A stretch of DNA of 64,000 bases, taken from Lactobacillus gasseri ATCC 33323 = JCM 1131 (GTDB taxonomy: Bacteria; Bacillota; Bacilli; Lactobacillales; Lactobacillaceae). The DNA lies in contig NC_008530.1 in the NCBI RefSeq assembly GCF_000014425.1, positions 930,001 to 994,000 of the forward strand. Reading direction: 5' to 3'. A program made the translations under genes and the position numbers. Under the pieces are notes generated by a model that did not search any database, was not told the origin of the DNA, and saw nothing but the letters and a program-made list of their open reading frames with translations. This document shows positions 1,507-17,617 of the stretch, in pieces (positions within the stretch are counted from its first letter, which is position 1; each line of letters starts with the position of its first letter).

Positions 1507-3354
1507 GTGATTGATTTGCTTAATATATTTTCAAAGAAAAGAAAAATAATTATCAATTTTGTAGATTCAGATACTAAAAATCAAATCATTACTAGCAAAA
1601 CTTTTTTTTGTAAAAAGGGCAAAAAAATCAATATTGATTTAATTTCAATTATTGATGAGCTTCAAAATCATGGTTATCAAATCCCAGCTAGTTTTGACAG
1701 AAAGATGGCATTAACTTTTGGCAAAAAAGATAATAGTGTCAATATTAGTGTGTCACACCAAAAGAAGATTATTGATGTTAACCATATCACTAAGAATTTC
1801 CCGCTTAACCAAGTAAAAAGGACAATAAAACAAATAGTCCACTATTCTGGAGCAGGAAGCAGGACACCGATTGATAATGTTAATTCGGCCGAATTTTATC
1901 GAACTTTAGAAGTCGATGCAGTGACAAAAGAAATAGTATCGAAAACAACCTGGATTTCAGATACCAATACTTTTCTAAAAATTGGAGTTCCAACTTTACC
2001 GGGTTATGTTCCTGATAAAACTACAGTGGGTGGTAAGAAAATAGTACCCGATGATGGAAATCAAGAATATTTTGTAAAATATAAGCTAAATGAGCATCCC
2101 TCAACAAATAAACAAGCAGCTATTATTCAATATGTAAATTTAACGGCAAATAATGCTATCGTTAAAACTACTAAATTAGAAGGAGAACCAAATTTTCCTA
2201 TTAATTACGATATTAATGATGATTTAAATGACTTAATAGCTAGGGGATTCAAGTTAGTTGACAATGGTTTTAATGGTAAAGGAATTCAATTCTTCGGCAA
2301 TAATGATAGCTATGTTCCAGTCTTTATTGTGACACTTAGACGTGATGAAATAATTGTAGACTCGGCACATCCTTATCAAAAGGTAAACCCTGAAGAATAC
2401 CAGAAAGATATAACTTTTACGATTAAGTTCGATGGTGCTGGCAAAAAGACACCAGAGAATATTATTAAAACCAAGCATTTGCAGCGAAAAGTATTATTTT
2501 CATTAGTCTTGAATAAAATAGTAGAAAACAATACCTATCCAACTGAATGGAAGACTATTCAGAAAGACTTTCCTAACAAGATTCAAGTTCCCGTCGTTAA
2601 AGGATATCATAGTAATCTTTCTCACATAGAAACTGAAAATATAAATAATAGCAAATCGGAGATCAAGGTATCTTATATTCGTAACAATAAAATAATTCCA
2701 GTTGATGAAAATGGAGAGTTGATACCTACAAAAGGAACTTTATATTTAGAAACAGATCCTAATGATCCAACTAAACTAAACACTAAACAGATAATTCCTC
2801 AAATTCCAGGCTACAGAAGTAATTACAAAATAATTACCCTATCTAATTCAAATAAAGATATTAAAGTTATCTACCAAAAAATTGCGAATAATTTTGAAAA
2901 AGATCAGTCTAATACTTACGTTCCTTCAAGTAACAACGATCAAATTGCAATTGTGAACTTTATTGACTTAGATAATGAAGGACAGCAGATAACTTCCTCA
3001 GGCCCCTTAATTGGCAAACCTAATGAAAATATCACAGATTTATATAGCACGTCGATTCCTTTAGCAGGGCTTGAAAAAGCAGGTTACCATGTTATTTTTA
3101 ATAATTTTGACGGAAATAATAAAATTCAAAAATTTGATGGAAATGATTTAACAACACAAGTCTTTACGGTTGGAGTAAGTAAAAATTCTGAGCAAAATAT
3201 GCAATTGCAACAATTGAAAAGCAGTGTTAATGAGCTTGTTAGTCAAAACAGTAATAATTTATCAAATCCAGTTGTTGCGAATTTAATGAATGTTCTTAAA
3301 TCATTGATCGATTTGATTTCAATTTTGAATAAGGATAACAAGAACAAAAATTAA
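1507..3354 (+). CDS. Mub-like repeat protein without visible signal peptide or anchor (paralogue 1)
   Basis: A 615-residue protein made of alternating beta-rich modules. Three copies of a short MucBP-like domain can be aligned: about residues 14-85 (starting INFVDSDTKNQIITS), 205-285 (YVNLTANN) and 480-560 (NFIDLDNEGQQITSS). Longer Mub_B2-like modules lie between them, each with a GYxP/GYHS-type turn. No YSIRK or other signal peptide and no LPxTG motif is visible. The protein ends in a hydrophobic stretch (VLKSLIDLISIL) and a Lys/Asn tail, a feature shared with the paralogue at 15886-17617. The start is uncertain. GTG at 1507 is the only in-frame start after a stop and has only a weak AGGA. 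The better ribosome site (GGAG at 1475) serves another frame that closes after ten codons, so the N-terminus may itself be disrupted. Role in host binding is inferred. Confidence 0.7.
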   Translation: MIDLLNIFSKKRKIIINFVDSDTKNQIITSKTFFCKKGKKINIDLISIIDELQNHGYQIPASFDRKMALTFGKKDNSVNISVSHQKKIIDVNHITKNFPLNQVKRTIKQIVHYSGAGSRTPIDNVNSAEFYRTLEVDAVTKEIVSKTTWISDTNTFLKIGVPTLPGYVPDKTTVGGKKIVPDDGNQEYFVKYKLNEHPSTNKQAAIIQYVNLTANNAIVKTTKLEGEPNFPINYDINDDLNDLIARGFKLVDNGFNGKGIQFFGNNDSYVPVFIVTLRRDEIIVDSAHPYQKVNPEEYQKDITFTIKFDGAGKKTPENIIKTKHLQRKVLFSLVLNKIVENNTYPTEWKTIQKDFPNKIQVPVVKGYHSNLSHIETENINNSKSEIKVSYIRNNKIIPVDENGELIPTKGTLYLETDPNDPTKLNTKQIIPQIPGYRSNYKIITLSNSNKDIKVIYQKIANNFEKDQSNTYVPSSNNDQIAIVNFIDLDNEGQQITSSGPLIGKPNENITDLYSTSIPLAGLEKAGYHVIFNNFDGNNKIQKFDGNDLTTQVFTVGVSKNSEQNMQLQQLKSSVNELVSQNSNNLSNPVVANLMNVLKSLIDLISILNKDNKNKN

Positions 3355-3373
3355 AAGAAAGCTGAATTTAAGA

Positions 3374-4219
3374 ATGAATAAAAAGTGTCCAAATTGTGGT
3401 AAAGAAGTAAATCTTGGGGAAGCTAAATGTCCATTTTGTGGCTATGATTTTGTAAATAATATTAATGCCAAAATTCCAGCCGATTTGGGGATGATGGGCA
3501 TAAGGCTAAATAATGTGCCAAAGAAGAAAAAGAAAGCTGAACCAGAAAATAAAAGGGTTGAAAAAAATACCACCCAAAAAGTAGCGGTAACAAAAGCAAA
3601 AGAATTAAAACATGCTAAAAAAAATAAAGTAGTTAAAAAGAAGAAAGGATGGCTATGGTTATTAGTTTGCTTAGCATTTTTGACTTTTGGCTATATTGGT
3701 TTTTATGTTGGAAGTAATTTTAATTCTACTCAGCATAGCATCTCTAGTGAAAGTAATCTTAATAGCAGTCATAATCATGTTAAAAAAAGTGCCACAAATG
3801 AAACTTCTTCTAAGCCACAAAATAAACAAAGTAAATCAGTTACGAAACAAGATCCTAATACAAAATTGTATACCCCTACGCAAGTCCAGCCTGTAATAAG
3901 CAATCAAGAAGAAATTAAAAACTTTTTAACGGGAGTATTTACTAAGCCGCAAGCAAATAAGTTTATTTCTGGTGAAAACAATTCTGATTTTCGTCAATTA
4001 CGTGATGTAACTTTAAGTTGGGAACCCAATGATGTGAATATCAAAATTAAATTATTTAATGTTTCTCAAAAGGGTAATGATTACAATCTAAATTACCTAG
4101 TTTATTATAACTTTATTACGGGTAGAAAACAGATTATGGTTTATAACAATGGCTTGTTAACATGTGCTAATGGCGCTTTCCACATTGCAAGATTAGGATC
4201 TGGATGCCTGATCAAATAA
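3374..4219 (+). CDS. Zinc-ribbon membrane protein with extracytoplasmic C-terminal domain
   Basis: The 281-residue protein begins with a four-cysteine zinc ribbon (Cys5, Cys8, Cys19, Cys22), followed by a very Lys-rich linker and one transmembrane helix at about 92-114. A Ser/Asn-rich spacer and a roughly 100-residue globular C-terminal domain with several Trp/Tyr/Phe strands follow. The predicted topology puts the ribbon in the cytoplasm and the C-terminal domain outside. It starts 19 bases after the Mub-like gene and is probably co-transcribed with it. Zinc-ribbon/TM proteins of this layout are common in lactobacilli but have no established function. A role in sensing or in export of the neighbouring surface protein is only a guess. 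Confidence 0.7.
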   Translation: MNKKCPNCGKEVNLGEAKCPFCGYDFVNNINAKIPADLGMMGIRLNNVPKKKKKAEPENKRVEKNTTQKVAVTKAKELKHAKKNKVVKKKKGWLWLLVCLAFLTFGYIGFYVGSNFNSTQHSISSESNLNSSHNHVKKSATNETSSKPQNKQSKSVTKQDPNTKLYTPTQVQPVISNQEEIKNFLTGVFTKPQANKFISGENNSDFRQLRDVTLSWEPNDVNIKIKLFNVSQKGNDYNLNYLVYYNFITGRKQIMVYNNGLLTCANGAFHIARLGSGCLIK

Positions 4220-4343
4220 ATAACATATAGCATACTTTTCTATTTGTGTTATGATGAAATTGTGAATATATTATATGTGCCTAATTTCTTTATAATTGAT
4301 GCTAAATTTAAATGAGATGGCTTTTATTTTTGGAGGAAAAGTT

Positions 4344-7300
4344 ATGAATTTTAGGGATATGAAAAGGAAAGATCGCTGGAGTATTAGAAAATTGACTGTT
4401 GGAGCAGCAAGTGTATTATTGGGAACATACTTTGTTGCATCTTCTCAAGGCGTTGCTAAAGCTGATACCGTTAAGGACAATAATGTAAATAACAATACTG
4501 TTAATGAACAAACTAGTGAAAAGAAAATATCACAGCCAATTACACCAAATACTCAAGCTGTAGTTATTGCAAAAAACAATCATCAAAATAGTGAGAATAA
4601 TACTGCCAATTTACAAAATAAGGCTGACCTAATTAGACAAAATAATCAAAAAATCATTAATAGGCTAACTGTACAAAAAAATACCATTCAAAAGGTTGAG
4701 AACAGCACTTTTTCTGAGATAAAAACTAGAGAAGCAGCTAATACTCAACCTTTTAATATTGCAAAAAATAGTTCAAAAGCAGTCACTACTAATTCTAATG
4801 ATGGGCTTGATGAATCAACTTTTGGCAAAGTTGACGTTAGTAGTTGGGATACAGAAACTGTTAATAATGGGTTAGATATTACTGGCTACCATGGCAGTGA
4901 TCAAGAACATCTAGTTATTCCAAACGCTGCTGATTTTACTAAGGCCGGAAAGTTAACTGATGAGAATGCAGTTATTACAGTAAATGCAGCTAAGTTTAAA
5001 AAGATTCTAAATACAATTAAACCAACTACTGTAGCTATCAGTAAAACAGATAATAAGAAAGTTCAAGTTTCAGATAAAACTGCTTTTGGTGGAAATTTAA
5101 CTACTGAAAATGGAGTTAGCACAAATGATCCTAATTTGAAACAGATGGATCTTACCAATTTAGATACCAGCAATTTGACTGATATGAGTGGCATGTTTTG
5201 CGGAGCATATAAGGTTAAGTCATTAGGTAATTTAAGTGGCTGGGATGTTTCTCATGTTACCAATATGCAACAGATGTTTGACGAGAATACTTATGATAGT
5301 CCAGCTCTAGAGTCATTAGATGGCATTAACAAGTGGAATGTAAGCAATGTCCAAAATATATTGTGTCTTTTTAGAAACGATACTAATTTAAAAGATATTG
5401 ATATTTCTGGCTGGGATTTAAGTAAAGCAACGGGAGGGTGGACGACTGGACAAGTGTTTGCCAGCTTTACTAATATTAGCAAGACAGTTATTAATCTTAA
5501 TAATGTAAAGTTGCCTTCTGATTTTAATTTGGAAACCAGTTTTGCAAACGGCCAGGTTGTAATTACAAATAATGGTGATCTTTTACAATTAGATACCACT
5601 TCGAAGACTCCATTTAAAGACAACTTAACTTTTAGGCAATATAATAGTTGGGGATATTATGCTAATCCAACTGTCAAAACCTATAGTCACAGCATATTTT
5701 ATGATTCAAAAGGTAGTTCTGATGCTAAAGCTATCGTTCAGGGCGTAATTGATACATTTTTACATAACAATTATGCAAATTATCAAAAAGTAACTATTCC
5801 TACCAATGCAGTATATCTTTCTACCAAGCCGAGTGATAGCGCAACTGCTATAGCAAATGAAACTTATGATATAGCTAAAACTGAAACTAGTGACACTACT
5901 TATCACGTATTCCGTGATGATGAAATTCCAATGCAATTAACGTATGTTGAGACGGATAATAATAAAAATCTCGGAACTGTTACTGTCGTCGGTAATGGAA
6001 TAACTATTGTGACTCCTTATAATACTGGTCTGAATCCATTGCCTGTTACTAATCTTGCTGACTGGCTAGGTAACGATGATTATACAAAGTCAGATATGAG
6101 TATTACTGGGCAAAAACACTTTGGCTTTGACGGAATTGCAGAGCCAGTTAATGTAGAAATAAATTTAACTAAGAAAGTGATTACAGAGCAACGGACAGTT
6201 ACTGTTCATTTGTATGAAAGAGACAGTAATGGCGATCCTGTTAAAGATAGTAATGGAAATTATGTATCTGTAGCTCCAGACCTTAAAGCAACTTTTAATT
6301 ATCGACAGGATGAGTTTGTAAATTCTAAGGGTAAAGTTGTTAAGAAGAGTAATATTTGGTTATGGGATGAAAAAGCTCCTAAAACATATGATGGTGCAAA
6401 TTCTCAAGAAGTAAATGTCGGATATATAGAGGGAGTTCAGTCAATTAGTAATGTGAAATGCTGGAAAGTTCCAATTAATAAAGAAGGGACAAGCTACATA
6501 TTAGTTCCAAATGATGGAAATTGGTCGACAGTCGAATTTTCAACTCCTGCTGTAGATGGTTACTATGCAAATCCATTTATAGATAATATTGTAAACGGCT
6601 ATCCATTGTTAGGTAGACCAGCTAATTTATTTGTAAATCCTAGGTTCAATAACTCTGTTCGTCCTGGCACGTCTGATACAAGTGATAGTAGTATTGCTTA
6701 TACAAATCAAGATGGTATTTATGAAAATAAAAATGAACATATAATCTGGTATTTTCCTAAGGAAAATACAGCAACAATTAAGAGAACTATTAATTTTGTA
6801 AAAAATGATGCAAGTCATACTCAATTACAAGAAACAAGTACTCAGGATGTAAATCTTAATGGCTCCTTGGTGGCAGCTAATCCAAATGGTACTGGCAAAG
6901 ATTACTTCACAATATATCCTGCAGAATATAATGATGCAAGTATTGTTACTGGCAGCCCAATTGCTGTGATAAATAATAGTAATAAACCTACATATAGTTG
7001 GAAAGCTAAAGATGGCCAAACAAGTGTAAATACTGATATAACCGGATATACAGTTTCAGCTGTTAAAATTGGGAACGCAGACTATTCAACGAATGAAAAT
7101 GACATTAAATATGCCAAAGAAATTGCCCAAAATACTGCAACATTGGATTCTCCAGCAGATTTGAATATTTCTTTTGTATATGCACCTGCTAGCCTTACTA
7201 GTAGTTATGAATTTGTTGATGATGATAATAAAGAACAGGTGATAGAACCTGCTACGTCATTTTCAGGTAAGACTGGCGAAACTGTTGAACTTAATATTAA

Positions 7301-10300
7301 ACTCCCAGCTAATTATGAATTAGCAAAAGGAAGCACATTACCAACTAGTTATACTTTTAAGCCTAGCGACAATGAACAGTTAAAAATTCATTTAATTCAT
7401 CAAAAGAAAGTTTTATCGGATGATACTAGAACAATTAGACGTAAAGTAACTATTACTGATCCCGATGGTAAAGTTGATCCTAAGTCAACAACACAAAGTG
7501 TTTCATTTAGTAGAAGCGATACCTTAGATAAAGTAACTAATAAACACATTTATGGTAAGTGGAATAAGAATCAACAAACTTTACTAGCAATTGCTTTGTC
7601 AGTATTTGCTGGATATACACCATCTGGCAAGGTGGATGCAATTAATGTAACGGCTGATAGTAATAATCCTGCTGATATTAATATTAGTTACACTGCTGAT
7701 AAGCAAAACAGTTTTTATCAGTTTGTAGACGATAATGAAGAGGGAGCTAAGGTTGGTACAAGTCATCCAATTTCTGGAACCACTGATGAAATGGTTGACT
7801 TAACTAAAGCAATAAAAGATTCAGTTCCAACTAATTATGATTTAGTTCCAGATCAAAGTATGAGTTATATCTTTAAAGCTAGTGATAATAAGCCACTTAT
7901 AATTCATTTGACTCATCAAAAGAAAGTTTTATCGGATGATACTAGAACAATTAGTCGTAAAGTAACTATTACTGATCCTGATGGTAAAGTTGATCCTGAG
8001 TCAACAACACAAAGTGTTTCATTTAGTAGAAGTAATACCTTAGATAAGGTAACCAATCAGCATATTTATGGCGAATGGAATACAAAACAGCAAACGTTGC
8101 CTGCAATTGTTTTGCCTGTATTTCCTGGATATACACCATCTGGTAAGGTAGATGCAATCAACGTAACGGCTGATAGTAATGACCCCGCTGATATTAATAT
8201 TAGTTACACTGCTGATAAGCAAAACAGTTCTTATCAGTTTGTAGACGATAATGAAAAGGGAGCTAAGATTGGTACGAGTCATCCGATTTCTGGAACCACT
8301 GATGAAATGGTTGACTTAACTAAAGCAATAAAAGATTCAGTTCCAACTAATTATGATTTAGTTCCAGATCAAAATATGAGTTATATCTTTAAAGCTAGTG
8401 ATAATAAGCCACTTATAATTCATTTGACTCATCAAAAGAAAGTTTTATCGGATGATACTAGAACAATTAGTCGTAAAGTAACCATTACTGATCCTGATGG
8501 TAAAGTTGATCCTAAGTCAACGACACAAAGTGTTACATTTAGTAGAAGCGATACTTTAGATAAGGTAACTAATAAACACATTTATGGTAAGTGGAATAAG
8601 AATCAACAAACTTTACCAGCAATTACTTTATCAGTATTTGCTGGATATACGCCATCTGGTAAGGTGGATGCAATTAACGTAACTGCTGATAGTAATAATC
8701 CTGCTGATATTAATATTAGTTACATTGCTGATAAACAAAACAGTTCTTATAAATTTGTTGATGATAATGAAAATGAGGCTACGGTAGGTACAAGTCATCC
8801 GATTTCTGGAACCACTGATGAAACGATTGATTTAACCAAAGCAATAAAGGATTCAGTTCCAACTAATTATGATTTAGTTCCAGATCAAAATATGAGTTAT
8901 ATCTTTAAAGCTAGTGATAATAAGCCACTTATAATTCATTTAACTCACCATATTAGTGCAGTAACTAATGATTCCAACTTAACAAAGACGGTAAGTCGTA
9001 CCATCAATGTTACAAAACCAGATGGAACAAAATTAGCACCAGTTGTTCAAAGGGTAAGCTTTATCCAAACAGCAACTAAAGACGATGTTACTGGAAAAGT
9101 TACATACAATAATGATTGGAAAGCAAATGGTAAAGATAGTTTTACAGAATATGATGCTCCAGTAGTTGATGGCTATACTGCTAATCCAGCTAAAATAGAA
9201 AAGTTTACTCCTAATGTTAATACTAAAGATTCAACTAAAAATATTGTTTATGAGGCTGGTTCTCAAAGTATAACTGTACGTTTTATTGATAAAGATAATA
9301 AAGATCAACAAGTGGGTGAAGCAATTTCTATTAATGGTGTTACAGGTAAGAGTGCTGATTTTTCTTCTGTTGTTGTTCCAGAAAACTATGTATTAGCAGA
9401 AGGGGAAAAATTACCAACTAATCATAAATTTACCGCCAATGATCAAACAGTTTATACGGTTGAACTAAGACATAAAACTGAAGATGCCAAGATTGATCCT
9501 AATGCTAAACTTAGTCAAAAAGTTAGTCGTACTATTTTAATTACCAAACTTGATGGTAGTGTCAATAAGATTATTCAAGAACATACCTTTACTCGTACTG
9601 GCGAGAAAGATATGGTCACTGGAAATATTAATTATGGACCGTGGTCAGAAAACGGAAGTTATACTTTCACAGCAATTATTGTAAAGAATATTGCAGGTTA
9701 CGCAATTAGTGGCTCGGCTCCAAAAATGGTGGTAACACCGGAAACTAAGGACTCGACAGTCAATATTAGCTATGTTGCTAATGGACAGACTAATTATTAC
9801 CAATTTATTGATGATGATTATCAAGCAGGAGATCCTGTAATTAATCAAAGACATGATTTTGCAGGAAAGACTGGTGAAGCGGTTAAGTTAAATATTTCAG
9901 TTCCTCAAAATTATGATCTGGCAAAAAGTAATGTTGTGCCGATTGCTTATACTTTCAAGACTAATAACAATCAACCAATTGTAATTCATTTAGTCCACCA
10001 TCTTAGTGCAATCACTAATGATCCTAAATTAATGAAGCAAGTTACTCGTACCATCAATGTTACAAAACCAGATGGAACAAAATTAGCACCAGTTGTTCAA
10101 AGGGTAAGTTTTATCCAAACAGCAACTAAAGACGATGTTACTGGAAAAATTACATATCATCATGATTGGAAAGTAAACGGTGGAAATAGCTTTACAGAAT
10201 ATGATGCCCCAATAGTTGATGGTTATACTGCTAATCCAGCAAAGATTGAAAAGCTTACTCCTGATGTTAATACCAAAGATTCAATTGTAAATATCGTTTA

Positions 10301-12797
10301 TAAAGCTGATTCTCAAAGTATAACCGTACGTTTTATTGATAAAGATAATAAAGACCAACAAGTAGGTAAAACGATTTCTATTAATGGTGTTACAGGTGAG
10401 AGCGCTGATTTCTCTTCTGTTGTTGTTCCAGAAAACTATGTATTAGCAGAAGGAGAAAAATTACCAACTAATCATAAATTTACTGCTGATGATCAAACAG
10501 TTTATACGGTTGAACTAAGACATAAAACTGAAAATGCAAAAATTGATCCTAATGCTAAGCTCAGTCAAAAAGTTAGTCGTACTATTTTGATTACCCAACT
10601 TGATGGTAGTGTCAATAAGATTATTCAAGAACATACTTTTACTCGTACTGGCGAGAAAGATATGGTCACTGGAAATATTAATTATGGACCGTGGTCAGAA
10701 AATGGTAAGTATACTTTCAATGATATTTCAGTGAAAGCAATTGCAGGTTATGCAATTAGTGGTTCAGCACCTGAAGTTGTAGTAACACCAGAAACTAAGG
10801 ACTCGACAGTCAAGATTAGCTATGTTGCTAATGGACAGACTAGTTATTATCAATTTATCGATGAAGATTATCAAGCAGGAGATCCTGTAATTAATCAAAA
10901 GCATCCTATTGCAGGTAAAACTGGAGATAGAATTAATTTAAATATTACGATTCCTAAGAATTATGACTTAGCAAAGGGGAGCATATTACCAACTAGTTAT
11001 ACCTTTAAAGTTAGTGATAATAAGCCTCTTGTGATTTATTTAGTTCATCAAAAAGAAGCTTTGTCGGATGATACTAAAGCTGTTAGACGTAAAGTAACTA
11101 TTACTGATCCTGATGGTAAAGTTGATCCTAAGTCAACAACACAAAGTGTTACATTCGGTAGAAGCGATACCTTAGATAAAGTAACTAATAAACACATTTA
11201 TGGTAAGTGGAATAAGAATCAACAAACTTTACCAGCAATTGCTTTGTCAGTATTTGCTGGATATACACCATCTGGCAAGGTGGATGCAATTAATGTAACG
11301 GCTGATAGTAATAATCCTGCTGATATTAATATTAGTTACACTGCTGATAAGCAAAACAGTTTTTATCAGTTTGTAGACGATAATGAAGAGGGAACTAAGG
11401 TTGGTACAAGTCATCCAATTTCTGGAACCACTGATGAAATGGTTGACTTAACTAAAGCAATAAAAGATTCAGTTCCAACTAATTATGATTTAGTTCCAGA
11501 TCAGAACATGAGCTATACTTTTAAAGCTACGGATAATGCACCAATTATGATTCATTTAACTCACCATATTAGTGATCTTGTTAATGATTCTAGCTTAACT
11601 AAGACAGTTAGTCGTACCATTTTAATTACCAATATTGCTGGTAAAATTGATAAAACTATTCAGAAGCATACCTTTACTCGTATTGGTAAGAAGGATATGG
11701 TTACCGGAAATATTAGTTATGGACCATGGTCTGATAATAGTAAGTATGCTTTTGCTGCAATGCAGGTGCAGGCAGTTAAGGGATACGCAATTAATGGTTC
11801 GGCTCCAGAAATGGTGGTAACACCAGAAACTAAGGACTCGACAGTCAATATTAGATATCTTGCTAATGGACAGACTAGTTATTATCAATTTATCGACGAT
11901 GATTATCAGGTAGGAGATCCGGTAATTAATCAAAAACACACTATTGCAGGTAAGACTGGTGAAGATATTAAGTTAAATATTTCAATTCCTCAAAATTATG
12001 ACTTAGTGCAAGGCGCTATTTTACCAACAAGCTATACATTTGGAGCAGATAATAATAAACCAGTTATTATTCATTTAGTTCATCAGCTTAGCAAAGTGGC
12101 TAATGATCCAAAATTGACTAAGGTAATTGCTAGAACGATTAATGTAACTAAAACTGATGGGACTACTAATTCTATTGTTCAAGCAGTTAAGTTTGTTCAG
12201 ACGGCTATAAAAGATGCTGTTACAAATAATATTTCATTTATGAATGATTGGAAGAATGTAGGTTCAGATAGTTTTGCCGAATACAATGTGCCTGAAATTA
12301 AAGGTTACACTCCAAGTCAAAGCAAGGTAGAAAAGCTAACGCCGAAATTTAATAATCAAAATGAAATTATCAATATTTCTTACATTAAAAATAAACAGCT
12401 AAATCCTACAAAACCTGTTAAGCCAATTGTGACGCCGATTTCGTCAGATAATAAGGAACAATCTACTAACAAGCAACATATTTCAACTAATATTGCTGAG
12501 TCAAAAGTAATCACAGAAAATATGGAGCAACATATTTCTAAACCTAATAGAACTAATAATTTGATTTCTGAAAAAGAAAATGAGCCAAGATACATGTCTC
12601 ATTCACAAGTAACTACTATGAAGAAAGTAGATGATGTAAAGAAACCAAAGCGTATCAATAAGATAAAGACTGAAAAAGCAACTTTACCGCAAACTGGTAA
12701 TAATAATGAAAAAACGGCGGCTATAGTTGCAACTGGTTTAGCAGTTGATTTAAGTTTGATCGGTTTGGCTGGTTTAAAAAAGAAAAGATTAAATTAA
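4344..12797 (+). CDS. Giant LPxTG-anchored mucus-binding adhesin (YSIRK signal, BspA-like repeats, Mub/MucBP repeats)
   Basis: I place the start at the ATG at 4344, behind a strong GGAGG, giving 2817 residues; an upstream in-frame ATG at 4296 lacks a ribosome site. The signal peptide is of YSIRK type (variant RWSIRK at residues 11-16, VGAASVLLG at 19-27) with likely cleavage after AKA at residue 40. Residues about 260-370 contain BspA/DUF285-type repeats (motifs LDTSNLTDMSGMF, GWDVSHVTNMQQMF). A first MucBP-like module ends near residue 1022. It is followed by ten large Mub_B2+MucBP units in the order A-A-A-B-C-B-C-A-C-B'. A Pro/Lys/Ser-rich wall-spanning stretch precedes LPQTG (2781-2785), a hydrophobic segment and a basic tail, a sortase A signal. 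The protein should be covalently wall-linked and bind mucin or other host glycans (known for Mub proteins; ligand here unknown). The near-identical repeats invite recombination. Confidence 0.93.
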   Translation: MNFRDMKRKDRWSIRKLTVGAASVLLGTYFVASSQGVAKADTVKDNNVNNNTVNEQTSEKKISQPITPNTQAVVIAKNNHQNSENNTANLQNKADLIRQNNQKIINRLTVQKNTIQKVENSTFSEIKTREAANTQPFNIAKNSSKAVTTNSNDGLDESTFGKVDVSSWDTETVNNGLDITGYHGSDQEHLVIPNAADFTKAGKLTDENAVITVNAAKFKKILNTIKPTTVAISKTDNKKVQVSDKTAFGGNLTTENGVSTNDPNLKQMDLTNLDTSNLTDMSGMFCGAYKVKSLGNLSGWDVSHVTNMQQMFDENTYDSPALESLDGINKWNVSNVQNILCLFRNDTNLKDIDISGWDLSKATGGWTTGQVFASFTNISKTVINLNNVKLPSDFNLETSFANGQVVITNNGDLLQLDTTSKTPFKDNLTFRQYNSWGYYANPTVKTYSHSIFYDSKGSSDAKAIVQGVIDTFLHNNYANYQKVTIPTNAVYLSTKPSDSATAIANETYDIAKTETSDTTYHVFRDDEIPMQLTYVETDNNKNLGTVTVVGNGITIVTPYNTGLNPLPVTNLADWLGNDDYTKSDMSITGQKHFGFDGIAEPVNVEINLTKKVITEQRTVTVHLYERDSNGDPVKDSNGNYVSVAPDLKATFNYRQDEFVNSKGKVVKKSNIWLWDEKAPKTYDGANSQEVNVGYIEGVQSISNVKCWKVPINKEGTSYILVPNDGNWSTVEFSTPAVDGYYANPFIDNIVNGYPLLGRPANLFVNPRFNNSVRPGTSDTSDSSIAYTNQDGIYENKNEHIIWYFPKENTATIKRTINFVKNDASHTQLQETSTQDVNLNGSLVAANPNGTGKDYFTIYPAEYNDASIVTGSPIAVINNSNKPTYSWKAKDGQTSVNTDITGYTVSAVKIGNADYSTNENDIKYAKEIAQNTATLDSPADLNISFVYAPASLTSSYEFVDDDNKEQVIEPATSFSGKTGETVELNIKLPANYELAKGSTLPTSYTFKPSDNEQLKIHLIHQKKVLSDDTRTIRRKVTITDPDGKVDPKSTTQSVSFSRSDTLDKVTNKHIYGKWNKNQQTLLAIALSVFAGYTPSGKVDAINVTADSNNPADINISYTADKQNSFYQFVDDNEEGAKVGTSHPISGTTDEMVDLTKAIKDSVPTNYDLVPDQSMSYIFKASDNKPLIIHLTHQKKVLSDDTRTISRKVTITDPDGKVDPESTTQSVSFSRSNTLDKVTNQHIYGEWNTKQQTLPAIVLPVFPGYTPSGKVDAINVTADSNDPADINISYTADKQNSSYQFVDDNEKGAKIGTSHPISGTTDEMVDLTKAIKDSVPTNYDLVPDQNMSYIFKASDNKPLIIHLTHQKKVLSDDTRTISRKVTITDPDGKVDPKSTTQSVTFSRSDTLDKVTNKHIYGKWNKNQQTLPAITLSVFAGYTPSGKVDAINVTADSNNPADINISYIADKQNSSYKFVDDNENEATVGTSHPISGTTDETIDLTKAIKDSVPTNYDLVPDQNMSYIFKASDNKPLIIHLTHHISAVTNDSNLTKTVSRTINVTKPDGTKLAPVVQRVSFIQTATKDDVTGKVTYNNDWKANGKDSFTEYDAPVVDGYTANPAKIEKFTPNVNTKDSTKNIVYEAGSQSITVRFIDKDNKDQQVGEAISINGVTGKSADFSSVVVPENYVLAEGEKLPTNHKFTANDQTVYTVELRHKTEDAKIDPNAKLSQKVSRTILITKLDGSVNKIIQEHTFTRTGEKDMVTGNINYGPWSENGSYTFTAIIVKNIAGYAISGSAPKMVVTPETKDSTVNISYVANGQTNYYQFIDDDYQAGDPVINQRHDFAGKTGEAVKLNISVPQNYDLAKSNVVPIAYTFKTNNNQPIVIHLVHHLSAITNDPKLMKQVTRTINVTKPDGTKLAPVVQRVSFIQTATKDDVTGKITYHHDWKVNGGNSFTEYDAPIVDGYTANPAKIEKLTPDVNTKDSIVNIVYKADSQSITVRFIDKDNKDQQVGKTISINGVTGESADFSSVVVPENYVLAEGEKLPTNHKFTADDQTVYTVELRHKTENAKIDPNAKLSQKVSRTILITQLDGSVNKIIQEHTFTRTGEKDMVTGNINYGPWSENGKYTFNDISVKAIAGYAISGSAPEVVVTPETKDSTVKISYVANGQTSYYQFIDEDYQAGDPVINQKHPIAGKTGDRINLNITIPKNYDLAKGSILPTSYTFKVSDNKPLVIYLVHQKEALSDDTKAVRRKVTITDPDGKVDPKSTTQSVTFGRSDTLDKVTNKHIYGKWNKNQQTLPAIALSVFAGYTPSGKVDAINVTADSNNPADINISYTADKQNSFYQFVDDNEEGTKVGTSHPISGTTDEMVDLTKAIKDSVPTNYDLVPDQNMSYTFKATDNAPIMIHLTHHISDLVNDSSLTKTVSRTILITNIAGKIDKTIQKHTFTRIGKKDMVTGNISYGPWSDNSKYAFAAMQVQAVKGYAINGSAPEMVVTPETKDSTVNIRYLANGQTSYYQFIDDDYQVGDPVINQKHTIAGKTGEDIKLNISIPQNYDLVQGAILPTSYTFGADNNKPVIIHLVHQLSKVANDPKLTKVIARTINVTKTDGTTNSIVQAVKFVQTAIKDAVTNNISFMNDWKNVGSDSFAEYNVPEIKGYTPSQSKVEKLTPKFNNQNEIINISYIKNKQLNPTKPVKPIVTPISSDNKEQSTNKQHISTNIAESKVITENMEQHISKPNRTNNLISEKENEPRYMSHSQVTTMKKVDDVKKPKRINKIKTEKATLPQTGNNNEKTAAIVATGLAVDLSLIGLAGLKKKRLN
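7410..8957 (+). repeat. Three tandem type-A adhesin repeats, 516 bp each
   Basis: Units start at 7410, 7926 and 8442, each at the sequence GTTTTATCGGATGATAC, an exact period of 516 bp (172 residues). Each encodes a Mub_B2-like half (motif RKVTITDPDGKVDP) and a MucBP half (YQFVDDNE, GTSHPISGTTDE). Copies are nearly identical at DNA level. The joint identity of long blocks and scattered differences suggests gene conversion. Confidence 0.9.
8958..11057 (+). repeat. Two tandem B-C superrepeats, 1050 bp each
   Basis: Units 8958-10007 and 10008-11057 repeat with an exact period of 1050 bp, and each divides into a 525-bp B half and a 525-bp C half. B carries TINVTKPDGTKLAP and FIDKDNKDQQVG; C carries FTRTGEKDMVTGNINYGPW and YQFIDDDYQAGDP or a close variant. 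This is a second-order duplication of a two-domain block. Confidence 0.9.
11058..11573 (+). repeat. Fourth type-A repeat, displaced from the tandem array
   Basis: A 516-bp copy of the A unit lies after the two B-C blocks. Its central part (about 11110-11500) is almost identical to the first A unit at 7410, including the KHIYGKWNKNQQTL and AGYTPSGKV stretches, while its first few codons diverge. This looks like copy-and-insert or conversion between distant repeats. Confidence 0.85.
11574..12398 (+). repeat. Third type-C repeat and terminal degenerate B' repeat
   Basis: 11574-12092 matches the C units (HTFTRIGKKDMVTGN, QFIDDDYQVGDP). 12093-12398 matches only the first half of B (ARTINVTKTDGTTNS, FMNDWKNVGSDSF) and is the most diverged unit. 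It ends where the low-complexity wall-spanning region begins. Confidence 0.8.
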
Positions 12798-12838
12798 TCA
12801 ATAGATATTTTAATTTCATAAAAAGAGGCAAGATAATA

Positions 12839-15778
12839 ATGTTATCAAGAAATAATAATCATTTTAATGAACTTAAAGAAATAAGTCCTCGTTATTCAAT
12901 TCGTAAGTTTACTGTCGGAGCAGCTTCTGTTCTTATAGGGATGTCAATTTTCGGGCTAAATTCTCAAACAGCTCAAGCAGATAGTGTTAATGAAAATGGT
13001 TCAAATAAACAAAATCCTGCTGTTGAACAGGAATCAAGCAAGGCACTTACAACTAGTCCATCAAGTAATATTAAAAACGTGGTTGTAACTACTAAGAATG
13101 TAGATGCACAAAATCAAGTATCTGCTGAAAAGTCAAAGGTTAATACAAGCAGTGAACAAAAAGCAACTAATACCAATAAAGAAAGCAATCAACGTGCCGA
13201 GCTACAGATAGAAAATACTAAAAAAGTTATTGCAGCAAATAAAGATCAAACTAAACAAGTTTCAACTGCTGATCAAGATCAAGCTAAACCAGTTGCCAAA
13301 GAAAATTATAGTGTTATCCAGCATGATGTGGTTGCAAATAACGGAAATACCCCACATGATAGTGGCTATGTTCAACTAAATTTAGGATTAAAAATAGAAA
13401 ATACTAAGAACATTAATCCTGGTGATTATATTGATATTGATTTAGGCTTGCCACTACAATCTGGCCAGCAAAAAACGTATAGTGATGGTTTAGCAGAGAA
13501 AGATACACCAGTAACCGTTAAAGATAATGCAGGAAAGACGGATACAATAGGAAATATTGCCACAGTAGGAAATATTCCGAATGAATTTTACCGATTAAGT
13601 TTTAACGATCATATTCAAAAATATGGTGCCATACTTCTTAATCTTGATTTAAAGCAATATTCTTTAATTCAGCGTGCTATTAGTACTGTCGGCTATTCTC
13701 ATGAAAAGAATGGCCCAACCAGTTATAGTGCTCAAAATGATCTAGTTATTGGGGATGGCGCTTATAAATTTACTTCTGGGTTAAGCGTTCCTGTTAAATA
13801 TATTCCACAAGAAAGTAGTGGAGCGATTACTCCGCGGATTGGAGAAAACACATGGATTCAAGGAAGAAGTACTGGCATAAATTCTAGAGTATGGACTATT
13901 TATCCTGACGGATCATTTACTGTAAACGATAAATCTCCGCTTGGGTTAGATGGAATCGTATATTTTGCTAAGAATTTTGGTAATACTGCTACAGTAACGG
14001 TTTATAGTCCAAGTAATAATCCTTACTTTGATTATAATTATGCAAGCGACAACGAGATTAAAGAACAAATTGAAAGTGCATTTGCTCAACTAAAAGGGAC
14101 TAACAATTTAGATCAAATTGCTCAAGATAATTCAAATGTCGGTTTTAGTTTAAATAAAATACCAGAAAATAATATTTCAATTGTTGTTACTCATAGTGAC
14201 AATCCTGAAAAAGCATATAGCACAGTCTTGAAAGCCGATGGGTCGAAATACAGTTCAGATCAATTAATGACTTCACGTACATATCACATTACTGTTAATG
14301 GAGCTAATTTAGGTCAAATATATTCTTTACCAATTTCTTTTATTTCTGAAATTACTAAAGCAGGTGTTGATGTTTCAAAGCCTGACGATATTACTAAACC
14401 AGAAGAAGATAAGGCTCAGATATATCAAGATCAAGATAAGTATGAAGTACTTAATAACAATTTGAATAATGCTTATCCAATTTTATATAAGGGAATTAGA
14501 ATCAATAATCCCGAATTAATGAATTATATGAAGAACAATCTTGCTACTTGGATTGATGTGAAAGATGATAATAATCCGAATAATGAATTAGTAGGTCCAG
14601 CAGCTTATACTCTTAATGTATCTGTTGTAAATCAGCCAACTAACTTAAAGCCACAAAATATTGCAAATGGTGATTCTTCAGGGCAACAATTAGATCAAAC
14701 TATTCTTGTTATTTTCCAGGACTTAGATGAAAATAACAAAAATATCTTAAGTAAAGATTTAACTGGATTAAGTGGAGCTGATGCTAGATATTCAACTTTA
14801 AGTGATATTAAGGCTTTAGAAAATCAACATTATGAATTAGTTAGCGATGATACTAAGGGTCAAAATCTTAAGTTTGGTAATCAAAAACAAGTATTTTATG
14901 TCAAATTTAGACATGTTCTAAAGAAAGAAAAACAAGAAAGTAAGAGTGTTTCTAGAAATATTACTTATGTTGACGATAAAGGAAATCCTGTTAAGGGATC
15001 ACCTGATGGCAAAGCTAGCTATGTACAAAGTGCAAGTTTTGTTCGTTTTCCAGTGAAAGATTTAGTGACTGGTGTGGTCGGCTATAGTATTAATAATGAT
15101 GGTGCAATTGATACTCAGGATGGTACTCATGCATGGAAAGCAACTAGCAGTAATTATTTCGAAAAAGTAATTTCAAAAGATCCTGCATCATTAGGCTTTG
15201 AGCATGTTAACTATGCTGTTATTCCAGAAGAAACAGTAGATGCAAATACTAAAGATCAAGAGATCCAAGTTATTTATAGTGGTACTACTAAGAAGCCAGA
15301 ACCAACTAAACCCGACAAGCCAAACAAGCCGGAGAAACCGGAAACCCCGAATAAACCTGACAAACCGAGTGAACCAAGTAAGCCAGAAATGCCAAGCAAA
15401 CCTGATAAATCAAGTGAAAGCAAGTCAACTGAACCTGAGAAATTGATTCATCAAGCAACATCAGACACTTCAAAAAATCACAGTGAATCAACTGAAAAAG
15501 AAGATTTATCAAGATCAAAAGTTGCTTTAGATAAGACAAGTTTTTCACCTTTGGCTAGAAGAAATACTTCGTTAGTCAATGAGAAGATTAACACTTCTGA
15601 ATCATCAAAAGATTCAACCAATCTGACTAAAAATAGAACAGCAAATTCAAATAAAGAATTGCCACAAACAAGTAGTAACGCTCAACAATCAATTGATGAT
15701 GAAGTGATTGGTTCTGTTGCTTTATCAATAGGATTAATTGGTTTAGCTGGTGTTAAAAAGAGAAAAAAGGCAAGATAA
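12839..15778 (+). CDS. YSIRK-type wall-anchored adhesin with Pro/Lys-rich spacer and LPQTS sorting motif
   Basis: A 979-residue surface protein starting 41 bases after the giant adhesin, with AGAGG before the ATG. The signal peptide carries RYSIRKFTVGAASVLIG (18-34) and likely cleaves after TAQA at residue 47. A Gln/Asn/Lys-rich linker follows, then a large beta-rich N-terminal region (about 160-600) that I do not recognise. A MucBP-like strand set lies near 625-700 (ILVIFQDLDENNKN) and one Mub_B2-like domain at about 700-815 (SRNITYVDDKGNPVKGS). Residues about 820-865 are a Pro-Lys-Pro-Glu wall-spanning repeat. The sorting signal is LPQTS (941-945), not canonical LPxTG, but the hydrophobic helix and KKRKKAR tail are intact. 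Anchoring is therefore probable but its efficiency is uncertain. Confidence 0.85.
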   Translation: MLSRNNNHFNELKEISPRYSIRKFTVGAASVLIGMSIFGLNSQTAQADSVNENGSNKQNPAVEQESSKALTTSPSSNIKNVVVTTKNVDAQNQVSAEKSKVNTSSEQKATNTNKESNQRAELQIENTKKVIAANKDQTKQVSTADQDQAKPVAKENYSVIQHDVVANNGNTPHDSGYVQLNLGLKIENTKNINPGDYIDIDLGLPLQSGQQKTYSDGLAEKDTPVTVKDNAGKTDTIGNIATVGNIPNEFYRLSFNDHIQKYGAILLNLDLKQYSLIQRAISTVGYSHEKNGPTSYSAQNDLVIGDGAYKFTSGLSVPVKYIPQESSGAITPRIGENTWIQGRSTGINSRVWTIYPDGSFTVNDKSPLGLDGIVYFAKNFGNTATVTVYSPSNNPYFDYNYASDNEIKEQIESAFAQLKGTNNLDQIAQDNSNVGFSLNKIPENNISIVVTHSDNPEKAYSTVLKADGSKYSSDQLMTSRTYHITVNGANLGQIYSLPISFISEITKAGVDVSKPDDITKPEEDKAQIYQDQDKYEVLNNNLNNAYPILYKGIRINNPELMNYMKNNLATWIDVKDDNNPNNELVGPAAYTLNVSVVNQPTNLKPQNIANGDSSGQQLDQTILVIFQDLDENNKNILSKDLTGLSGADARYSTLSDIKALENQHYELVSDDTKGQNLKFGNQKQVFYVKFRHVLKKEKQESKSVSRNITYVDDKGNPVKGSPDGKASYVQSASFVRFPVKDLVTGVVGYSINNDGAIDTQDGTHAWKATSSNYFEKVISKDPASLGFEHVNYAVIPEETVDANTKDQEIQVIYSGTTKKPEPTKPDKPNKPEKPETPNKPDKPSEPSKPEMPSKPDKSSESKSTEPEKLIHQATSDTSKNHSESTEKEDLSRSKVALDKTSFSPLARRNTSLVNEKINTSESSKDSTNLTKNRTANSNKELPQTSSNAQQSIDDEVIGSVALSIGLIGLAGVKKRKKAR

Positions 15779-15792
15779 GCTACACTAAAGAG

Positions 15793-15830
15793 AAAGGAGA
15801 CCGACTTTAAGTCAGTCCCTTTTTCTTTTG
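15793..15830 (+). terminator. Rho-independent terminator after the second adhesin
   Basis: An imperfect hairpin (GGAGACCGAC with GTCAGTCCC around TTTAA) is followed by TTTTTCTTTT, 15 bases after the stop codon. It probably ends the two-adhesin transcript. Confidence 0.65.
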
Positions 15831-15856
15831 TGAGTGCTAAAATTAAACTATAAGAT
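15828..15856 (+). promoter_or_regulatory. Candidate promoter for the second anchorless Mub-like gene
   Basis: TTGTGA (15828-15833) and TAAGAT (15851-15856) are 17 bases apart. They directly follow the preceding terminator and sit 30 bases before the ATG at 15886. Assigned by position and spacing only. Confidence 0.35.
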
Positions 15857-15885
15857 ACTTTTTATTTATATATAGAGGTTAAAAG

Positions 15886-17617
15886 ATGGATGATAAGTTT
15901 AATCAGAATGAAAATATAGATGAACATGTGGTGATCGATGCAAATCATCCTGGATATGGTTTTACTAAAGAAAAACTATTAAAAAACAATTACGCAAACT
16001 GTTCATTATGTAGGTGCTGCTAGCCGAAATCCTCAAGATAATGTGACGAGGGTAAGTTTTAGTCATGTTTATATCATTAATAAAAAAAGTGGGAAAGTAG
16101 TTGAAGATCATGGCTTTCAGCCAAAAGAAAAGAGTATGCAATTAATTGGTACTCCAACACTTCCAGGTTATATTCCCGATCGAGTAGTAGTTGGTGGAGA
16201 AAAGGTAACGGTTAATGACTTAAATAAAGAATATATAGTTTCTTTTAAGCTCAACATGAAACCAACTAATACAATACAAAAGGCAAAAATTAGATATGTA
16301 GATTTAACTAATAATAATCAATTGCTGACAGAAGATACTGTTTCTGGTTTAGCAAATACACCAATTAATTATGATCCTCAACTTAAAATCAAGCATTTTG
16401 AAGAACAAGGCTATAAATTAGTAGCTAATGATTTTAATCATAACGGAGATGTCCAATTTTTTGGCAGTTTGGATGACTACTGCCCGGTTTTTATTATTAC
16501 TTTTATATCTGCTATTGAAGCTGTAAACGTAAATAATCCTGTAGAATGGGTTGATCCATCTTTATATCATAGAAAGAGTAAGCTGATTGTTAATTTTGAG
16601 GGATGCTCAAATCCGCCCGAGAAAATTATTCAAACAACTAATTGGTTCCGAACGATTACGATTAATAAAGCTGCCAAAAAAGTAATTTCTCATGGTGTTT
16701 ATGATAAAGCTTGGCATGCGGATAAAGAAAGATATCAAGAAATTAAAGTTCCCGTTGTTCAGGGTTATCACGCTGATTTAGATTTGATTAAACCAAAATC
16801 TATGACTTTAGATGATCAAGCCATTACAGTTCAGTACCACCCTAATGGTCATTTGATTCCAGTTGATGAAGCGGGAGTTGCTATTCCAGATGCACCAACG
16901 CCTCAGTTTGTATCAGACTCTAGTGATGCAAGTAAAGTTAAAAACAATCAAAATGTGCCGAAAGTAAGTGGCTATCAAGCAACTCTCGCTACAGTAACTC
17001 CAGCCAATCCAGGGCAAGATTTAACTGTAGTTTATGAAAAAATAAATAATAATGATGATACTTTATATATTAATCTAAATCACGATCATGAATCAGATTC
17101 TCAAACTACAGTAGTTCGTAAAAATATTGACCAAAAAACCGATTCGAAAAATAATAAAGTTCAAACAGCAATTATTAATTTTATTGATATAGATGATCAT
17201 GGTCACTCTATTACTTCTTCTGGAAAACTTTCTGGACGAGTTGGAGAATCAATTAATGATTTATATAGTACTGAAATCCCATTAAAAGTATTGAAAGAAC
17301 AAGGATATAAAGTTATATTTGATGACTTTAACGAAAATAGTGAAAAACAATACTTTAAAGACGGTGTTCTTCCTCAGATATTTACTATTGGACTAAGTAA
17401 AAAGCAAAGCGATAACCAGAGTAGTCAAGAAAGTTCAGATCTAAATGAAGAATATGAAAAATTACGTCAAACAAGAGAGCAGTTTAAACAAATAAAACCA
17501 ACGATTATGGATAATTCTAACGAATTGAATTCTTCGCAAACTGTTAATAAACTCATTGATATTATTACAGGTTTATTAACTTTGATATTTATGCTTAATA
17601 GAGGGGATAAGAAATAA
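15886..17617 (+). pseudogene. Mub-like repeat protein without signal or anchor (paralogue 2), frameshifted near the N-terminus
   Basis: An ATG at 15886 with AGAGG upstream opens a frame (MDDKFNQNENIDEHV) that is lost after about 33 codons at a run of six A (15981-15986) and stops at 16021. Removing one A joins it to the 524-codon frame ending at 17617, restoring KTITQTVHYVGAASRNP, which aligns with the same position in the paralogue at 1507 (RTIKQIVHYSGAGSRTP). The repaired product would be about 576 residues. It has two short MucBP-like domains (YVDLTNNNQLLTED; FIDIDDHGHSITSSG), Mub_B2-like modules, no signal peptide, no LPxTG, and a hydrophobic end (IDIITGLLTLIFML) with a basic tail. The shift is in a homopolymer, so phase variation or a sequencing error are alternatives to true inactivation. 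Translation could also reinitiate downstream. Confidence 0.75.

Follow-up and report, generated by a model that had tools for sequence, protein, structure and literature searches.

In gut lactobacilli, Mub domains are the textbook modules for adhesion to mucus, and a protein that has them is commonly taken to be a surface adhesin; what, then, do they do in proteins that have neither a signal peptide nor a sortase anchor? The question is raised by a locus of Lactobacillus gasseri ATCC 33323, in a 64-kb window (bases 930001-994000 of the 1,894,360-bp single-contig genome, coded G000; coordinates given without a locus code are those of the window), where two anchorless Mub-like genes, protein 1 (1507..3354) and paralogue 2 (15886..17617), bracket two sortase-type adhesins. 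The original prediction for this locus had left open non-classical export, a hydrophobic tail anchor or disrupted N-termini, and had taken it as given that the modules are useful only outside the cell. Judged from comparative sequence data, the anchorless genes are one old, selected family and not repeatedly decayed adhesins, and we propose, with somewhat less than even confidence, that this family may bypass the Sec route and stay inside the cell, often at the cytoplasmic face of the membrane, as a partner of the neighboring giant adhesins.

Results

Protein 1 (+ strand) is an intact single frame of 615 amino acids (aa) with a GTG start, which is fixed by an in-frame stop two codons upstream and an AGGA beginning 8 nucleotides (nt) before the GTG. 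Pfam finds only Muc_B2, in two stretches (first domain, 1807..2091; second domain, 2386..2685; both +), and MucBP_2, in three, the last MucBP_2-type module (2941..3174, +) being well conserved across the family alignments. Neither a YSIRK signal nor a Gram-positive anchor was found in it by the Pfam scan that detects YSIRK in both neighboring adhesins, which bears out the claim that this protein lacks a signal peptide and a sortase motif. The short basic N-terminal segment MIDLLNIFSKKRK (1507..1545, +) stands directly ahead of the first module and has no hydrophobic signal core, and the C-terminus carries an amphipathic helix (3271..3327, +; moment 0.44) followed by a Lys/Asn-rich end. Against a model of sorting-signal tails this end scores -4 bits, a value equally high in 71 of 100 shuffles, and so shows no likeness to them. 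Protein 1 and its orthologue in the sister species (genome G033) are 91% identical, with a ratio of nonsynonymous to synonymous substitution rates (dN/dS) of 0.136, falling to 0.07 over the last 60 codons.

Paralogue 2 (+ strand) is frame-broken in L. gasseri ATCC 33323, where an ATG at 15886 opens a frame stopping at 16023 (N-terminal piece, 15886-16023) and the body runs from 15983 in a different frame (main piece, 15983-17617); a full-length protein is probably not produced from this copy. The break lies at or near an A-run at window positions 15976-15990. In G033 the orthologue is one frame of 577 aa (L045:2419-4152) that begins MDDKFNQNENIDEHVV, without a signal. The original prediction treated each gene as encoding one protein, which holds for protein 1 and, for paralogue 2, in the sister species but not here. 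The domain order, supposed to be the same throughout, is not: in the alignment with protein 1, the paralogue 2 orthologue sets in only where the first module is nearly complete. As for the shared C-terminus, the two are alike in style but differ in kind: the hydrophobic segment of paralogue 2 (17543..17596, +), followed by NRGDKK, is, as measured on the G033 orthologue, more hydrophobic than the amphipathic tail of protein 1 and weakly sorting-signal-like (7.2 bits; 0/100 shuffles as high).

A search with protein 1 against 75 Lactobacillus species genomes gave matches in 35 at E ≤ 1e-10. All of the 28 best-scoring places (protein 1 included) fall in genes of the anchorless class, intact or broken, among them one broken copy, in G073, whose N-terminus is not resolved; the first place in a sortase-anchored giant ranks 29th. 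Intact members number 29 (467-1020 aa, protein 1 included) from 18 Lactobacillus genomes, and a 30th, of 545 aa, is found in Limosilactobacillus frumenti DSM 13145. Because members were chosen from tables of open reading frames (ORFs) as intact Mub-like ORFs without a signal or LPxTG, the count of 0/29 with a signal is partly a product of that choice, and the search ranking, the G033 orthologues and the tree outweigh the corresponding 0/30. An examination of homologue N-termini for YSIRK or Sec signals had been set beforehand as the test by which the original prediction could fail, and none was present in the G033 orthologues of the two genes or in the 30 intact members. In-frame extensions ahead of the start amount to 0-12 codons in the 29 Lactobacillus members and to five in that of L. 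frumenti; the highest 15-residue Kyte-Doolittle mean over the first 70 residues is at most 1.13 and 0.44, respectively, and over the extension plus the first 40 residues at most 0.92 (29 members), whereas six signal-bearing adhesins, used as a positive control and measured in the same way, reach 1.74-2.03. The 300 nt upstream of the 29 members and of the L. frumenti member contain no YSIRK-like motif in any frame, and LPxTG is absent from the last 32 residues of the former and the last 45 of the latter. Pfam reports Muc_B2 and MucBP_2 in 20 of the 20 members scanned, and neither the YSIRK signal nor the Gram-positive anchor is among the five families that it lists for them; the L. frumenti member also has the modules. 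The N-termini of several members hold segments such as MSLFGKKKK, MSIFGKK or MAWFKK.

Beyond Lactobacillus, a profile of five members matched 20 of 301 Lactobacillaceae genomes at E ≤ 1e-40; they are spread over 4 of 40 genera, and 11 lie outside Lactobacillus. Two of these 11 were inspected, one (G264, probably L. frumenti itself) carrying the anchorless gene and the other (G303) a frame ending in an LPQMG-type anchor; the matches in the remaining nine are to large frames of 1305-5131 aa. The scan of genome contigs with protein 1 alone confirmed no relative, and in the plasmid search 62 records matched at <60% identity, the 20 listed being 22-27% identical. For the comparisons below, the loci used contain 79 Mub-like ORFs, of which 28 unique anchorless ones (the G058 and G069 proteins are identical) were set against 30 of anchored type, and 21 fragments, broken or doubtful ORFs were left out. 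The latter include the broken copies in G005, G026 (two, beside an intact one), G070 (lineage B, see below), G073 and G036, paralogue 2 of the window, short ORFs of 281 and 306 aa in L058 and L057, and ORFs of 366 and 861 aa in L047. The anchored set includes two ORFs (743 and 809 aa) in which the signal is degenerate and LPxTG is missing.

A tree was built from 113 modules (55 anchorless and 58 anchored), each anchorless protein supplying no more than two and each anchored protein no more than three, with 25 of the 30 anchored proteins represented. The anchorless label changes only three times on it, against a mean of 38.1 after shuffling (0/500 shuffles as low), and a single clade (support 100/99), free of anchored modules, unites the first modules of 22 anchorless proteins, drawn from both Lactobacillus and Limosilactobacillus. 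Long branches were flagged in the tree, and the anchorless modules overall, which come from different positions within each protein, are not a single clade (0% of bootstrap trees). Repeated loss of 5' ends is disfavored by this grouping, because genes arising in that way would be expected to group with their neighboring parents. In twelve comparisons among anchorless genes dN/dS ranged from 0.071 to 0.220. These data bear directly on the possibility that the genes are 5'-damaged or decaying sortase adhesins, that is, pseudogenes, in favor of which one may cite the broken copies listed above, paralogue 2 among them, and the fact that many mucus-binding genes of lactic acid bacteria have been called pseudogenes (PMC3017865). 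Set against them are the 30 intact signal-less members in two genera, the G033 orthologues of both genes, the search ranking, the tree, the low dN/dS and the conserved extreme C-termini. As an account of the family, disrupted N-termini are therefore rejected and extremely improbable; damage fits only single broken copies such as that at 15886-17617.

Whether the proteins reside inside or outside the cell was approached through their cysteines. Within Muc_B2 domains, anchorless proteins have 15 Cys in 7446 aa (81 domains, 28 proteins) and anchored ones 0 in 12,972 aa (141 domains, 27 proteins; Fisher p = 2.7e-7); for whole proteins the counts are 38/21,288 and 13/52,154 aa, and none of 20,000 protein-level permutations reached the observed difference. 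In the L. gasseri genome itself, Cys per 1000 residues amounts to 0.16 in LPxTG proteins, 1.75 in signal-like ORFs without LPxTG and 5.63 in ORFs without a transmembrane (TM) segment. The premise that the modules can be of use only outside thus finds no support, the Cys data pointing instead to long residence inside. A composition classifier, trained on 164 no-TM ORFs and 31 signal-like ORFs that lack LPxTG (balanced accuracy 0.70-0.90 in cross-validation), scored all 28 anchored Mub proteins at 0.82 or above. Regarding an export route, SecA2 gave no match over the curated cut-off in G000 nor in ten of the 18 carrier genomes (one of the ten, G070, is 71% complete), and accessory Sec export was rejected on that ground as a route needed in the L. 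gasseri genome.

Three types can be distinguished among the C-termini. The first (G042, G019 and G003a) is TM-like and resembles a sorting tail without LPxTG (24.5-25.5 bits, 0/100 shuffles as high in each case); the second, seen in protein 1 and the paralogue 2 type, is a helix, either amphipathic or hydrophobic, that leads into a basic end; and in the third, found in lineages A and B (six proteins each, hybrids counted with B), a linker that is charged and variable precedes a terminal FSWLK or FPWMK. In these two lineages the last eight residues are 80% (A) and 92% (B) identical, against 58% and 48% for the approximately 100 preceding residues, and their tails score at most 1.4 bits as sorting signals. 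One might suppose from the first type, and from the 7.2 bits of the paralogue 2 type, that the family consists of tail-anchored surface proteins, inserted in the membrane by the hydrophobic tail and basic end, like a sorting signal, with the body outside; the scores of protein 1 and of lineages A and B speak against it, and we know of no way for a body of about 600 aa to cross the membrane without a signal peptide, so that we regard such an arrangement as improbable.

Most members lie close to anchored relatives: 22 of the 30 intact ones are within two ORFs of a Mub gene bearing a signal or sorting motif, every listed neighbor being on the same strand. In the original prediction the bracket was seen as a possible unit, and it does recur, both elsewhere in this genome, at a second locus, and in sister species. 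The second full bracket of this genome consists of an 873-aa member (lineage A), a 3692-aa giant and a 985-aa member (lineage B) beside a D-2-hydroxyacid dehydrogenase gene, and the same arrangement beside that gene is found in G033 (873/4067/984 aa), G020 (876/3421/989 aa) and G059 (870/2964/983 aa); in one genome Pfam confirmed the identity of the dehydrogenase and of the amino acid permease that follows. G022 and G023 no longer have the giant: an open A::B hybrid anchorless gene (L039:2203-4866, L040:5105-7759) occupies the place between the dehydrogenase and the permease, as though A and B had recombined and the giant had been removed in the process; in G071, A alone remains.

The side-by-side placement of the same modules, together with the hybrids, which suggest that anchorless copies can recombine with each other, is what might be expected if the signal-less copies were silent cassettes, maintained as a store of modules that could be recombined into the giants that are expressed. 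We consider this very improbable, since no shared DNA tract above 85% identity and 100 bp was found between the different Mub genes compared within the L. gasseri genome, the anchorless genes have start codons of their own, a Shine-Dalgarno-like motif (21/29 members) and conserved ends, and anchorless and anchored modules fall mostly in separate clades.

Within the window bracket, the gene following protein 1 by 19 bp (3374..4219, +) encodes a zinc-ribbon, Lys-rich protein with one TM segment and a C-terminal domain beyond it. It had been regarded as coupled to protein 1; that it is a conserved part of the system we reject: the gene is full-length in only 2 of the 75 genomes, G000 and G033, and is a lineage-specific neighbor. 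Next come the giant sortase adhesin (4296..12797, +), with a YSIRK-type signal, ten Muc_B2 stretches and LPQTG, and a second sortase-type adhesin (12839..15778, +), with a YSIRK signal, one MucBP_2, one Muc_B2 and LPQTS plus a hydrophobic/basic tail. The description of this pair as sortase-anchored is right as to the YSIRK signals of both but inexact as to LPxTG, as the second ends in LPQTS, a motif shared by its orthologue in the sister species (L045:4259-7768, G033). A hairpin between this adhesin and paralogue 2 (15797..15819) is terminator-like on the - strand in the scan, and by eye a T-run also follows it on the + strand.

Other loci hold Mub genes in various states. At L068:3657-12099 (C1:1642000-1655000 of the L. 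gasseri genome), a 270-aa YSIRK-like frame overlaps a 2552-aa LPQTG frame in another frame, and the pair is apparently a truly 5'-split sortase adhesin, in contrast to the anchorless family. At L067:2622-7714, a 1425-aa signal-bearing Mub frame is followed by a 194-aa LPQTG frame, and the two look like one split adhesin. At L057:7738-10920 and L058:4914-8218 lie the Mub ORFs of 743 and 809 aa with degenerate YSIRK-like signals and without LPxTG, followed by Mub-like ORFs of 306 and 281 aa with LIGLSGIK near their ends; these are possible intermediates in the loss of the anchor.

Discussion

Without a signal peptide, a protein body is expected to be cytoplasmic, and the basic or amphipathic ends of the family resemble the membrane-targeting segments of cytoplasmic proteins. 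From these features and from the cysteines we infer residence in the cytoplasm and association with the membrane; the partner role is a guess. According to the working model, the proteins would not be exported by the Sec route and would remain inside the cell, many of them held on the cytoplasmic face of the membrane by short ends (an MSLFGKKKK-like N-terminus, a hydrophobic C-terminal helix, or FSWLK/FPWMK). They would be produced beside giant sortase adhesins, and the shared modules would let them bind, hold or register the giants or their export machinery. It is the likeliest reading and agrees with the proximity, the shared modules, the selection and the membrane-like ends. More doubtful is its extension, in which an entire class of Mub proteins, cytoplasmic, attached to the membrane and predating its present carrier species, would serve as dedicated partners in the making or export of the adjacent giants.

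Several observations weigh against cytoplasmic residence and partnership. The Cys contrast is not significant in MucBP_2 (3/4951 anchorless against 0/4967 anchored aa, p = 0.12), and the counts are not all independent, since some Cys sites are common to related members, although the sites differ between lineages. Moreover, the anchorless rate of 1.79 Cys per 1000 residues is close to that of signal-like ORFs and a third of that of no-TM ORFs. At a threshold of 0.5 the classifier places 22 of the 29 members as export-like, protein 1 scoring 0.93; we weighed the matched-domain Cys above it because it mostly sees the make-up of the Mub fold itself, a confounding that still leaves it giving the cytoplasm no support. 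Four C-termini (G025_a, G017a, G004a and G003b) have no membrane-like end. As to selection, the adhesins (0.125, 0.207 and 0.314) overlap the anchorless range of dN/dS, two ordinary neighbors lie at 0.03 and 0.013, and the first 40 codons of protein 1 stand at 0.66, from few changes. Because of this overlap, constraint on the anchorless genes is much like that on the adhesins and not stronger, and the idea that they are the more constrained, suggested by the 0.314 of the giant in the window, was dropped in view of the 0.125 of the second-locus giant. Eight of the 30 members lack an anchored-type Mub ORF at a distance of two ORFs or less, and one of the other 22, G004b, has as its only such neighbor a gene with a degenerate signal and no LPxTG. 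Finally, G022, G023 and G071 keep an intact anchorless gene without an adjacent giant. Large Muc_B2 frames do occur at other places in the three genomes; solitary genes would require a partner elsewhere in the genome, and strict one-to-one pairing with an adjacent giant is not supported.

Some of the same observations would suit anchorless adhesins that work outside the cell after release by lysis, in vesicles or by some other route, with the basic or hydrophobic end holding them on the surface and the modules binding mucus. A class of signal-less adhesins offers a precedent, the modules are those of known mucus-binding proteins (with weak matches to the solved structures 3i57, 3lyy and 4mt5), and the export-like classifier scores agree. 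The entry of Cys into Muc_B2 modules that have none in anchored homologues, the lack of a SecA2 match over the cut-off in G000 and the FSWLK/FPWMK end, which to our knowledge is no wall-binding signal, count against it, and we consider an outside function rather unlikely.

Individual members have been recorded before. Our literature search on locus tags and accessions of the family found only a 2011 review (PMC3257693), whose Table 3 lists, among MucBP-containing proteins, LGAS_0044, LGAS_0046, LGAS_0939 and LGAS_0944 of L. gasseri ATCC 33323 (873, 985, 615 and 524 aa), LJ_0046 and LJ_0048 of L. johnsonii NCC 533 (870 and 983 aa), and LBA0909 and LBA1609 of L. acidophilus NCFM (508 and 643 aa), all identified by length only, each length equaling that of an ORF found here. 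The table gives twelve such proteins for L. gasseri ATCC 33323, of which 11 (873, 3692, 985, 2823, 2457, 615, 2833, 524, 1425, 2552 and 1993 aa) have the lengths of ORFs found here, and the twelfth, of 2449, fits a frame of 2450. By these lengths, protein 1 is most likely LGAS_0939, the giant LGAS_0942 and paralogue 2 LGAS_0944, and LGAS_0044 and LGAS_0046 would bracket LGAS_0045. Section 3.1 of the review states that a secretion signal and LPXTG are present in most proteins of this kind, and it makes no remark on missing signals or on a family. Among the titles, abstract openings and passages that our search covered, no paper deals with a signal-less Mub family; an earlier remark in the L. 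gasseri or L. johnsonii genome papers or in the Mub survey of Boekhorst and others (2006), which lay outside that coverage, is possible. Screens requiring YSIRK plus LPxTG leave such proteins out, as in PMC12403894. Our data suggest that Mub modules may have a task within the cell as well. If there is indeed a conserved export-less branch, domain-based counts of adhesins are off, and the branch suggests a hypothesis, open to experiment, about what happens to adhesins of 2000-4000 residues before they are exported.

Among known systems, the closest are the MUB/Mub-type adhesins (Pfam Muc_B2, PF17966; MucBP_2, PF17965), with which the anchorless family has its modules in common and whose solved repeats (3i57, 4mt5) match weakly; the family differs from them in its lack of a signal peptide and LPxTG, its size of 467-1020 aa, the Cys in its Muc_B2 domains and its separate grouping in the tree. 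Anchorless (moonlighting) surface adhesins likewise have neither a signal peptide nor an anchor. Those known are mostly housekeeping enzymes or unrelated binding proteins, whereas the proteins described here consist wholly of adhesin modules. A third parallel is offered by MinD, FtsA and MreB, cytoplasmic proteins with amphipathic membrane-targeting ends; unlike them, the anchorless Mub proteins have no nucleotide-binding or cytoskeletal domain that we could find, but by analogy they share with them a short basic amphipathic end, placed after a variable linker and more conserved than the linker itself.

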